NCBI RefSeq assembly: GCF_002067035.1
Contig: NZ_MVQB01000043.1
Location: 62,001-126,000 of the forward strand
DNA from: Methanoregula sp. PtaB.Bin085
Lineage (GTDB): Archaea; Halobacteriota; Methanomicrobia; Methanomicrobiales; Methanospirillaceae
Length of the DNA: 64,000 nt
Reading direction: 5' to 3'
How positions within the stretch are numbered: the first letter of the stretch is position 1; each line of letters starts with the position of its first letter. Under the pieces are notes generated by a model. It was not told the origin of the DNA and ran no database searches. It worked only from the letters and a program-made list of their open reading frames with translations. A program made the position numbers and the translations under genes. Shown here piece by piece: positions 59,775-62,456 of the stretch.

Positions 59775-60494
59775 TCACTCCGGTTTTCTGCCGGTCATGA
59801 TAAAAACCGGGAAATCCCGGGCTTCTCCGGAAGGGGACGGCCTCTGCATGATCGCTGCAGTCCGGTCCCGGACCGAAACAAACCCTTCCGCCTCCAGGAG
59901 ATCCTTCATGACGCTCCGTTCAAACCCGAAGTGAAATACACCGGCGTTCGAACTGTGGAATTTTCCGCCATCGGGATCGAGATCGATGACCGCGATCTGT
60001 CCTGACGGCCGAAGCACCCCCGCCATCATTTTCAGGAGGTGCGGTATGTCACGGATGTGATGGAACGTCATGCTGCTGATGACGAGGTCATACCTGCCAT
60101 CCGGCATATCTCCCTTGTTGAGATCGGCAAAACGCGTCCTTGCATTCGTGATGCCCTGCTTCCGGATCTTCCCGTCAAAGACCGCCAGCATCCCCTGCGA
60201 GCTGTCAACGCCCGTGATGCTCCGGACCAGCGGCTGGAGATGAAGCGTGAGCAGGCCTGTTCCGCATCCGAAATCCAGTACATCCATCTCCGGTGTCAGG
60301 GACACCATCCCGCGGATCGCCTGTGCCACATCGTCCGCCAGCTTCACCCGCCCTGGTTCGCTGTCCCATGTTGCAGCTTCGGCGTCAAAGCTGCGGTTCT
60401 CCCCACCGGTAATATCCGTGGAGCCGGAGTCCTCTTTCTTCCCCTTCACTGCTTTCCCGGTTCCGGGATTCCGTTTCCTTGTATCCGTTGTCAT
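59775..60494 (-). CDS. SAM-dependent methyltransferase
   Basis: 239 residues. Motif I VLDFGCGTGLLTLHL, motif II ITGVDSSQGM, MPDGRYDLVISSMTFHH and LRPSGQIAVIDLDP: a UbiE-like class I methyltransferase. The first ~35 residues are charged and probably disordered. Its upstream region carries the same dyad and TATA arrangement as the OsmC gene at 62331, so it may belong to a small stress regulon. Confidence 0.88.
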   Translation of the reverse strand: MTTDTRKRNPGTGKAVKGKKEDSGSTDITGGENRSFDAEAATWDSEPGRVKLADDVAQAIRGMVSLTPEMDVLDFGCGTGLLTLHLQPLVRSITGVDSSQGMLAVFDGKIRKQGITNARTRFADLNKGDMPDGRYDLVISSMTFHHIRDIPHLLKMMAGVLRPSGQIAVIDLDPDGGKFHSSNAGVFHFGFERSVMKDLLEAEGFVSVRDRTAAIMQRPSPSGEARDFPVFIMTGRKPE

Positions 60495-60687
60495 GGTCTG
60501 ACCAGCTTCCTGGAATAGAATTTCGTCGTATGAAGGACAGCATCCGGGTTATGGCAGGTACCCCGGGTATTTGCCGGTTTTTCGGGCCTGGCAAGAGTAT
60601 CCGCGATTTCATTCCTGTCATCCACGGGTATTGTGCATCTCTCTGCAATCCCCGCCGGATCATGCCGGTTGGGTTGGGGATGCAGCG

Positions 60688-60726
60688 ATATATACCCGGA
60701 GCCGGTTTTCAAGATTATTTGAAAAC
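60688..60726 (-). promoter_or_regulatory. Shared dyad and TATA, methyltransferase side
   Basis: Inverted repeat GTTTTCAA (60705-60712) and TTGAAAAC (60719-60726), six-base spacer, with TATATA-like sequence at 60688-60694 ten bases away. The same arms, spacer length and nearly the same distance to TATA are found at 62418-62456. Confidence 0.65.
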
Positions 60727-60858
60727 AGTCGACCGCGGGTCAAAACACCGGTTAAACCCCAATCCGGTTCACCCGAACGCCTGAGTGCCGATGACTGATC
60801 CCGGGACTGGCATCCCTGGTCAGGAAATATTATCCTTCTGTCAACTGATATTCATACC

Positions 60859-61221
60859 ATGGGTTTTACCGGCTGCTGCCCTGCCGACAGCGATCTTGAG
60901 ATTGCCTGGCGCAATGAACTCGAGCGGGAAGCACATGAGATCACCTCGCCGGTCTTTGACGATGTTGCCGAGATGATGAAGATCGTTGCAAGCCCGCTCC
61001 GCATCAGGATCCTGTTCCTCCTGGTACAGAAGGACCATTCCGTGTATGAACTGATGTACATCCTCAAGGAACCGCAGAACCTTCTCTCCTACAACCTCGG
61101 GATCCTCAAAAAGGCCGGTCTCCTGGAATCATACTACCGCTCGCGCCATAAAACATACCGGTTCGCCGGCGACCGGAACGCTCCCCTCATCCGGTGCCTG
61201 CGGCAGGTGCTGGTTCCCTGA
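60859..61221 (+). CDS. ArsR-type winged-helix regulator
   Basis: 120 residues. Core MMKIVASPLRIRILFLLVQ...VYELMYILKEPQNLLSYNLGILKKAGLLESYY...KTYRF is the ArsR/SmtB winged helix. Cys6 and Cys7 (TGCCPAD) near the start might be a sensor but are not the classical metal site. AATATTATC at about 60821-60829 is a TATA candidate. It sits between two dyad-bearing promoters and is the likely binder; that link is inference. Confidence 0.87.
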   Translation: MGFTGCCPADSDLEIAWRNELEREAHEITSPVFDDVAEMMKIVASPLRIRILFLLVQKDHSVYELMYILKEPQNLLSYNLGILKKAGLLESYYRSRHKTYRFAGDRNAPLIRCLRQVLVP

Positions 61222-61232
61222 GACGGGGGATG

Positions 61233-61664
61233 TTACCGTTTTTTCATCCGGAGATCCCAGGTGATCTCCACAGATCTCCCCAGCGTTACGGCGATCGGAC
61301 AGACTGCGGTCACCGAGCGGCGGACCGCAGTGCGGACCACTTCTTCCTCGATATCCCCGCCCACCAGGAAGATGAGGTGGATTGTTTCAAACACGCGGGG
61401 TTCGTCATGCCGGAAGACGCATTCAGCTTTTACCGTGAAGGAGCGGGGCGTTATCCCGCTGTCATCAAGCAGGAGAATAACGTTGGTACCGGTACAGGAA
61501 GCAAGGGACGCGATAAATGCATCCACCATGGAAAAACGGCGGGGCGTATCCCCTTCAGAATTCCGGGCAACAAGGGTAAGCCGGCCCCCGTCACGGTTCT
61601 CGACAACAAACCGTGTCCCGCCTTTCCACGATGCCTTGACGAACGTCCATGTGGTGCCTGTCAT
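61233..61664 (-). CDS. OsmC-family protein 1
   Basis: About 143 residues. Redox cysteines Cys57 (SLASCTGTNV) and Cys122 (TAVCPIAVTLG) are as in OsmC/Ohr peroxiredoxin-like enzymes, which reduce organic hydroperoxides. GGGAG is close before the ATG at 61664; an ATG at 61703 is possible. Convergent with arsR (stops 11 bases apart) and downstream of the second OsmC gene on the same strand. Confidence 0.86.
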   Translation of the reverse strand: MTGTTWTFVKASWKGGTRFVVENRDGGRLTLVARNSEGDTPRRFSMVDAFIASLASCTGTNVILLLDDSGITPRSFTVKAECVFRHDEPRVFETIHLIFLVGGDIEEEVVRTAVRRSVTAVCPIAVTLGRSVEITWDLRMKKR

Positions 61665-61830
61665 GATCTCCCTTTGGGGAACAGTCTCGTTTCCGGACCT
61701 CATAGAGTATCGGATCGGTTCCTGCTCACGGGAATGACAGGGGGGAAACTGGAAGAGGCTGGCGCGGGGATCTGCGGATCATCCTGTTTCTGAAGATCCC
61801 TGATGCCGGGAAAAACAGGGGTCCGGGGCA

Positions 61831-62331
61831 TCATACCGCTGAGGGTATGATCTCGTGGTCCCAGGTGAGATACGAGGCCCGGCCGAAGGTTGCCGCAACC
61901 GGGCACCGCCTCATCATGATGTCGGAGATGACCGTCTTTGCGTACTCGTCATCAATAGTGCCGGTCAGGCTGAACCTGACATGAAGCGTATCAAAGAGCG
62001 TCGGCGGTGTCGGGCGGCGGGTTCCGCTGACCGTGATAGTGATGTCTTTCACATCAACATGGTCCTTCCTGATCATGACTTCAAGAATCTCATGAACGGT
62101 ACACCCCGCGAGGGCAGAGACAAACAGGTCGAACGGGCCCGGGATCTTCCCGGAAGCCATGAGTCTGTCTGTTGCGGCCATGCTGATCGTGCAGCCGGCA
62201 GGGGTTCTTGCAACAAGGGTATCCGTGTTCTTGTCCCATGTTGCCTGAATTTTCACCGGCGGAAGTGCAGCAGGCGGGGCACAGGTGTGCACGACCGGCG
62301 TTTTTGCAGTACTTGTTTTCGCATTACTCAT
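61831..62331 (-). CDS. OsmC-family protein 2
   Basis: 166 residues. Cys77 (SALAGCTVHEIL) and Cys143 (MRRCPVAATFG) form the OsmC pair; an N-terminal extension of about 25 residues precedes the fold. GGAG eight bases before the ATG at 62331 decides that start over a GTG at 62340. Its promoter carries the dyad shared with the methyltransferase. Probably a peroxide or thiol-stress protein. Confidence 0.87.
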   Translation of the reverse strand: MSNAKTSTAKTPVVHTCAPPAALPPVKIQATWDKNTDTLVARTPAGCTISMAATDRLMASGKIPGPFDLFVSALAGCTVHEILEVMIRKDHVDVKDITITVSGTRRPTPPTLFDTLHVRFSLTGTIDDEYAKTVISDIMMRRCPVAATFGRASYLTWDHEIIPSAV

Positions 62332-62417
62332 GGAGGTCACTCCTTTTCATCCTCTGACACAATCACTGGATCCGGATGACCCTGCCACAGGACAGGTCAA
62401 TGGTCGGTGCGGGACGC

Positions 62418-62456
62418 ATATATGTTCAAAGCCGGTTTTCAAGAATGTTTGAAAAC
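62418..62456 (-). promoter_or_regulatory. Shared dyad and TATA, OsmC side
   Basis: GTTTTCAA (62435-62442) and TTGAAAAC (62449-62456), six-base spacer, with CATATATG at 62417-62424. The expected transcription start would leave a leader of about 60 bases before the OsmC 2 ATG. Confidence 0.65.

Follow-up and report, generated by a model that had tools for sequence, protein, structure and literature searches.

Related Regulators in Bacteria and Archaea

The ArsR/SmtB metalloregulators, represented by SmtB, CadC, CzrA, BigR, SqrR, and HlyU, are small winged-helix proteins which recognize inverted-repeat operators and carry thiols near the N-terminus, and the members of the ArsR/SmtB family act mostly as repressors. 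MsvR, a cysteine-dependent regulator of methanogens with an ArsR-like helix-turn-helix (HTH), possesses an additional V4R domain. For MsvR of Methanosarcina, repression by blocking the BRE from boxes that lie upstream of the TATA element has been proposed (PMC3729527). The metal site of CadC is constructed from C7, C11, C58, and C60 (PMC1665450), and RexT of Nostoc is an ArsR-SmtB regulator in which a vicinal cysteine pair serves as a redox switch (PMC8960804). For archaeal activators, the usual binding position is upstream of BRE/TATA (PMC5937170), where the sites of CopR and TFB-RF1 from Pyrococcus furiosus are located (PMC7830388, PMC5937170).

The locus described here lies in a stretch of 64,000 nucleotides from Methanoregula sp. 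PtaB.Bin085, the whole of which is termed the window. It encodes a 120-residue ArsR-type protein between two inverted repeats, and it shares with the ArsR/SmtB metalloregulators the fold, the small size, the near-N-terminal thiols, and an inverted repeat as candidate operator. In contrast to those proteins, the ELCVCD-type metal box is replaced, Cys11 is lost, the N-terminal arm keeps Cys6-Cys7 only, and the candidate operator has a set position upstream of an archaeal BRE/TATA. A palindrome just upstream of BRE/TATA at a conserved distance is likewise known for TFB-RF1 and CopR, the former of which also has very few targets; however, the DNA-binding proteins and the palindromes are different ones, and activation has been demonstrated for those two but is a proposal for the window protein. 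RexT resembles the window protein in having a vicinal cysteine pair within the ArsR-SmtB family, but Cys41 is one of its two residues and the RexT pair exerts its effect on alpha3 rather than at the N-terminus, and its operator, ATTCG-N15-CGAAT, is unlike the window dyad. Regulation of the MsvR type was ruled out, given that MsvR recognizes TTCGTA-N4-TACGAA boxes, which differ from the dyad, and that the window protein consists of the HTH domain only.

Two Dyad-TATA Promoters around an ArsR-Type Gene

A first-pass annotation of this DNA had reported a dyad occurring twice, 1.7 kb apart, each copy 10-11 bases from a TATATA box and with an ArsR-type gene in between. A pattern search of the window recovered both copies of the perfect inverted repeat GTTTTCAA-N6-TTGAAAAC and confirmed the position of the regulator gene, and the features of the locus are as follows.

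59775-60494, minus strand: class I SAM-dependent methyltransferase, 239 aa (PF13649, 72.7 bits)
60491-60571, minus strand: what is left of a DUF1847 gene, namely its final ~26 codons (ANTRGTCHNPDAVLHTTKFYSRKLVRP, stop), recognized by alignment to the full-length genes of relatives
60687-60694, minus strand: TATA octamer TATATATC, separated from dyad 1 by 10 bp
60705-60726, minus strand: dyad 1, candidate operator (plus strand GTTTTCAAGATTATTTGAAAAC, minus strand GTTTTCAAATAATCTTGAAAAC), which would serve the (DUF1847-)methyltransferase transcript
60826-60835, plus strand: possible TATA-like element (aatattat) of the ArsR gene's own promoter, ~24 bp before the ATG, proposed by sequence inspection
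60859-61221, plus strand: ArsR-type regulator, 120 aa, between the two dyads, with N-terminal CCPAD and S/Y where CxC is usual
61233-61703, minus strand: osmC1, OsmC-like protein, 156 aa, downstream of osmC2 (PF02566, 49.7 bits)
61831-62340, minus strand: osmC2, OsmC-like protein, 169 aa (PF02566, 52.7 bits), GTG start with an in-frame ATG a few codons later
62417-62424, minus strand: TATA octamer CATATATG, belonging to the osmC2 promoter and separated from dyad 2 by 10 bp
62435-62456, minus strand: dyad 2, candidate operator (plus strand GTTTTCAAGAATGTTTGAAAAC, minus strand GTTTTCAAACATTCTTGAAAAC), which would serve osmC2 and is shared by all of the six genomes that have a close ArsR orthologue

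Read on the minus strand, both sites present the dyad, exactly 10 bp, and a TATA octamer facing the minus-strand gene, so the reported adjacency to TATA stands and its spacing narrows to a single value. With up to three mismatches allowed, the window holds two matches to the dyad against 0.15 expected. When the search was extended to the 2.9 Mb genome at up to two mismatches, the two window copies were the only matches and the reversed control pattern gave none, while base composition predicts ~0.00014 exact dyads per genome; the dyad is therefore confirmed as more than a chance occurrence. A genome-wide search of this kind had been named beforehand as a check, and random placement of the dyad was not what it returned.

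That the dyads stem from a terminator or a repeat was ruled out by their uniqueness, by the lack of a T-run after them, and by their position at promoters instead of gene ends. More broadly, it is very hard to credit that they are repeats of chance or structural origin (hairpins of terminators or fragments of repeats) devoid of a regulatory role: the sequence is indeed short and self-complementary, but two copies were found in 2.9 Mb where 0.00014 were expected, and half-sites as well as spacing are kept in six genomes.

Genes Served by the Two Promoters

Both OsmC-like proteins score above the PF02566 cut-off (27.5 bits), and the two conserved OsmC-type cysteine positions are visible in the sequences (LAGC and RRCP in osmC2). 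Since osmC1 is also on the minus strand and downstream of osmC2, it may share the osmC2 promoter, and the two genes, which are linked in five of six genomes, probably form one operon.

The dyads had been described as oriented to the minus-strand methyltransferase and osmC2 genes. Their orientation is correct, with the amendment that the DUF1847 remnant intervenes on the methyltransferase side, owing to which the methyltransferase start codon is ~200 bp away from dyad 1. The remnant, whose TGA overlaps the ATG of the methyltransferase gene, was recognized with an alignment score of 86, the highest score among 500 shuffles being 53. Two relatives carry, after the dyad, a full-length DUF1847 gene of 213 aa and then the methyltransferase gene. 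At the DNA level, the promoter region and the end of the DUF1847 gene align with these relatives and the middle is gone; the promoter therefore survived a deletion of ~0.6 kb, which moved the methyltransferase close to it. Judged from this comparison, the second promoter evidently drove DUF1847 together with the methyltransferase in the beginning, and DUF1847 has been deleted here to its last codons. This deletion was absent from the first-pass annotation, as was the loss of the usual metal-binding cysteines from the regulator. No NCBIfam equivalog cut-off was reached by the methyltransferase among the matches listed, which include weak matches to the ArsM and TehB models, and a search of the PDB by sequence gave no match for DUF1847.

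Conservation in Close Relatives

The comparison set comprised 232 genomes of the order, six of which carry a close ArsR orthologue (72-89% identity among the others; one ArsR is truncated); exactly the same six encode a close OsmC2 (at least 60% identity). The dyad precedes osmC2 in every one of the six, with 0-2 mismatches and the identical 10-bp spacing, and across these promoters conservation amounts to 92-96% in the half-sites and to 52% in the upstream flank. Dyad 1 occurs in all three genomes with an intact methyltransferase operon, where it is situated between ArsR and the divergent methyltransferase transcript, and it is absent from both genomes without the methyltransferase.

In the sixth genome (L005:1486-2265), the ArsR reading frame breaks off at about residue 62, osmC1 is lacking, and the methyltransferase adjoins at ~50 bp from the ArsR start with no dyad between them, for which reason this locus is regarded as either damaged by deletion or misassembled. 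Because the truncated regulator is found in one of the six genomes that keep the osmC2 dyad, the dyad can outlast an intact ArsR for a short time at least, which counts against the link to this protein. Since the arrangement is retained by the relatives, the small two-promoter regulon is, on comparative grounds, considered real and conserved within this ArsR subfamily.

A separate feature was noticed in the closest relative (L055:7597-7713; also L003:6645-6761), in which the osmC2 promoter is directly preceded, on its upstream side, by a duplicated 3' end of purE with 90% identity across 39 residues.

A Sister Group with the Same Module and Other Targets

Other genomes of the order (Methanomicrobiales) encode sister ArsR proteins with 34-48% identity, an N-terminal CCPADC, and a metal box HCVCEF or similar, and many of their genes stand divergently beside a DGC-domain gene. 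They have in common with the close group the half-sites, the 10-bp spacing, the CCGG-rich spacer, and the invariant CCP, but they differ in the target gene and in keeping Cys11 and CxC, which resemble the CadC ligands in number and position (PMC1665450). Their module combines TTCAA-N6-TTGAA, or a sequence close to it, with a spacer of the type CCGGTTCCGGG or CGGTTCCGGG and a TATA box, and it stands before the divergent gene (DGC domain where annotated). A weight matrix trained solely on nine close-group sites finds the dyad-10 bp-TATA module before the divergent gene in most sister loci, 11 of which, with ArsR proteins of about 40-48% identity, are also listed by the simple pattern; the 10-bp distance to the TATA octamer applies to all nine close-group sites and to nearly all sister sites. 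Among the 232 genomes, TTCAA-N6-TTGAA-N13-16-TATA occurs at 72 sites, and 17 of them have one of 27 ArsR-subfamily genes no more than 2 kb away, as against 0.016 expected, the expectation being based on an estimated genome total of 520 Mb.

The module was not found at control loci away from ArsR, consisting of 16 methyltransferase, 16 DUF1847, and more than 20 distant OsmC homologues, which ruled out the dyad as a property of OsmC, DUF1847, or methyltransferase genes per se. Since sister ArsR loci have the module with another target and target homologues elsewhere are without it, the module goes with the regulator rather than with its target. The tree places the window ArsR and its orthologues on a long branch nested inside the module-bearing group (100/99). 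The recognition helix of module-bearing proteins reads SYNL (SYNV once); in ars-cluster relatives from one other genus, some of them beside arsenic-type genes, it reads SNHL and the module is absent. Taken together with the linkage of the inverted repeat to the ArsR gene itself, these data make it likely that the two dyads are operators of the ArsR-type protein encoded between them, and the earlier proposal of one regulator co-ordinating two promoters thereby gains comparative support from both the six genomes and the sister group.

Elsewhere in the genome, on contig 16 (~29.3-29.8 kb; L186:1500-1974), a canonical ArsR of 134 aa with a CVC motif is encoded next to permease, thioredoxin-like, and CcdA-like genes (named by eye), and two near-dyads flank its own TATA. 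The dyads might be real operators of another regulator such as this CxC-bearing protein, which could cross-bind them because the half-sites at its own promoter (TTTCAA-N6-TTGAAT and TTTCAG-N6-TTGAAA) are near-identical. This assignment is nonetheless improbable, given that its own sites are arranged otherwise, one downstream of TATA at the start codon and the other farther upstream, and that the module tracks the CCPAD-type ArsR, from which it is always less than 2 kb away in six genomes.

Sensor Cysteines and the Probable Signal

The regulator encoded between the dyads matches Pfam HTH_5 with 33.3 bits (cut-off 22) and is thus a member of the ArsR/SmtB winged-helix proteins, and it scores 47.4 bits against NCBIfam HTH_metalloreg (NF033788), below the cut-off of 55. 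Structure prediction gave a winged helix of the ArsR/SmtB type (mean pLDDT 84.8), for which the best Foldseek matches were Rv0081, SqrR, SmtB, HlyU, and BigR, with CadC ranking lower. The sister proteins contain C6, C7, C11, and a CxC at 61/63. In all close orthologues, CxC is changed to SxY (or SxF) and Cys11 to Ser or Gly, with Cys6-Cys7 invariant, and the HSVYEL of the window protein aligns where the sister group has HCVCEF; a further cysteine near the C-terminus, C112, is not found in every orthologue. The combination of CxC and N-terminal cysteines that defines an alpha3N metal site is accordingly missing from the window ArsR and its close orthologues, and the loss of C11 and CxC renders a classical alpha3N metal response unlikely. 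A thiol-based response through the vicinal Cys6-Cys7 pair is plausible instead. Since the window protein no longer has the CxC ligands by which its sisters would hold a metal, these two residues probably sense a thiol-reactive species (a metalloid, persulfide, disulfide, or oxidant).

The first-pass annotation had spoken of peroxide-stress genes. This label is unsupported, since it was based only on the family name of OsmC; nothing specifically indicates peroxide, and the sister regulators have a metal- or metalloid-type cysteine set and a place beside DGC-domain genes. Detoxification of arsenic or another metalloid, in place of a redox function, has also been considered, whereby ArsR would bind an As(III)-like ion via Cys6-Cys7 and another ligand, and the methyltransferase and DUF1847 would process the metalloid. 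More distant relatives of the regulator adjoin arsenate-reductase-like (LMWPc) and SBF-family, arsenite-exporter-like genes, and the methyltransferase weakly matches ArsM and TehB, both of which agree with such a role. It is still judged unlikely, considering that the third N-terminal cysteine and both CxC cysteines have disappeared from all close orthologues, that the methyltransferase reaches 32 bits where the ArsM cut-off is 263, and that the cluster is without an exporter or a reductase.

Proposed Mode of Control

In the preferred explanation, an ArsR homodimer would bind TTTTCAA-N6-TTGAAAA, one half-site of which stops, on the upstream side, ~4 bp short of the BRE region and 10 bp short of TATA, and from the two dyads it would co-ordinately control the osmC2-osmC1 transcript and the DUF1847-methyltransferase transcript. 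The dimer may contact TFB/TBP, as suggested by the spacing that is constant over ~20 promoters, and would then activate by recruitment. Provided that ArsR is the regulator, activation is slightly favoured over repression, for archaeal activators usually bind upstream of BRE/TATA, as do CopR and TFB-RF1, and the distance fixed at 10 bp between dyad and TATA fits an activator better than steric blocking. The spacers between dyad and TATA contain no AAA run, the reference for the local BRE being small (13 of 171 upstream regions with a clear TATA hexamer).

With regulator and sites unchanged, ArsR may alternatively be a classical repressor, which would block TFB from the BRE in the absence of the signal and leave upon cysteine modification. 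Such a mode agrees with the behaviour of most characterised ArsR/SmtB proteins, with a dyad within a few bases of the BRE, with the precedent of MsvR, and with some sister loci (G068) in which the dyad sits between two divergent TATA boxes at a similar distance, as for auto-repression. On the other hand, the dyad overlaps neither BRE, TATA, nor start site, base-exact spacing over ~20 promoters is not needed for steric repression, and in the window lineage dyad 1 is 132 bp from the ArsR start codon, a distance that varies between genomes. Repression is hence the less probable reading. The preferred explanation in its entirety, comprising an ArsR dimer on both dyads, two transcripts, activation, and a thiol-reactive signal, is held to be moderately probable from the genomic comparisons. 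A bolder version, in which an ArsR devoid of the metal site has become a redox- or persulfide-sensing activator that employs its vicinal N-terminal cysteine pair and contacts TFB at a fixed distance from the BRE, is more doubtful; if it were true, the sister group, with both operator and metal site kept, would reveal a stepwise change of sensor on an unchanged operator.

Literature Context and Further Loci

In the literature searched, mostly outside subscription papers, neither the regulon nor DUF1847 was described; searches for ArsR with OsmC in methanogens returned nothing, and those for ArsR with Methanoregula or with OsmC in archaea returned off-topic papers only (titles and abstracts). 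This ArsR-subfamily regulon is thus without a description in the literature covered, by which its novelty is not proved. It offers a compact archaeal case with operator, regulator, and targets all delimited, in a lineage for which few such regulons have been described. Sister groups with a common operator module and different sensor cysteines constitute a natural experiment on how sensing by ArsR changes, and the common regulatory context of DUF1847, the OsmC-like proteins, and an orphan methyltransferase provides a lead to their function.

Two further loci were recorded. In G196 (contig 184:455-490), an extra full module, composed of the dyad, CCGGATCCGGAG, and TATATA, is present ~1.5 kb from a sister ArsR gene and near a permease-like gene, and is possibly an additional target. 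In a genome of another genus (L065:14-1120), a methyltransferase homologue (61%) directly adjoins an OsmC homologue (43%) with no ArsR, from which it follows that the pairing of methyltransferase and OsmC recurs independently of the dyad.
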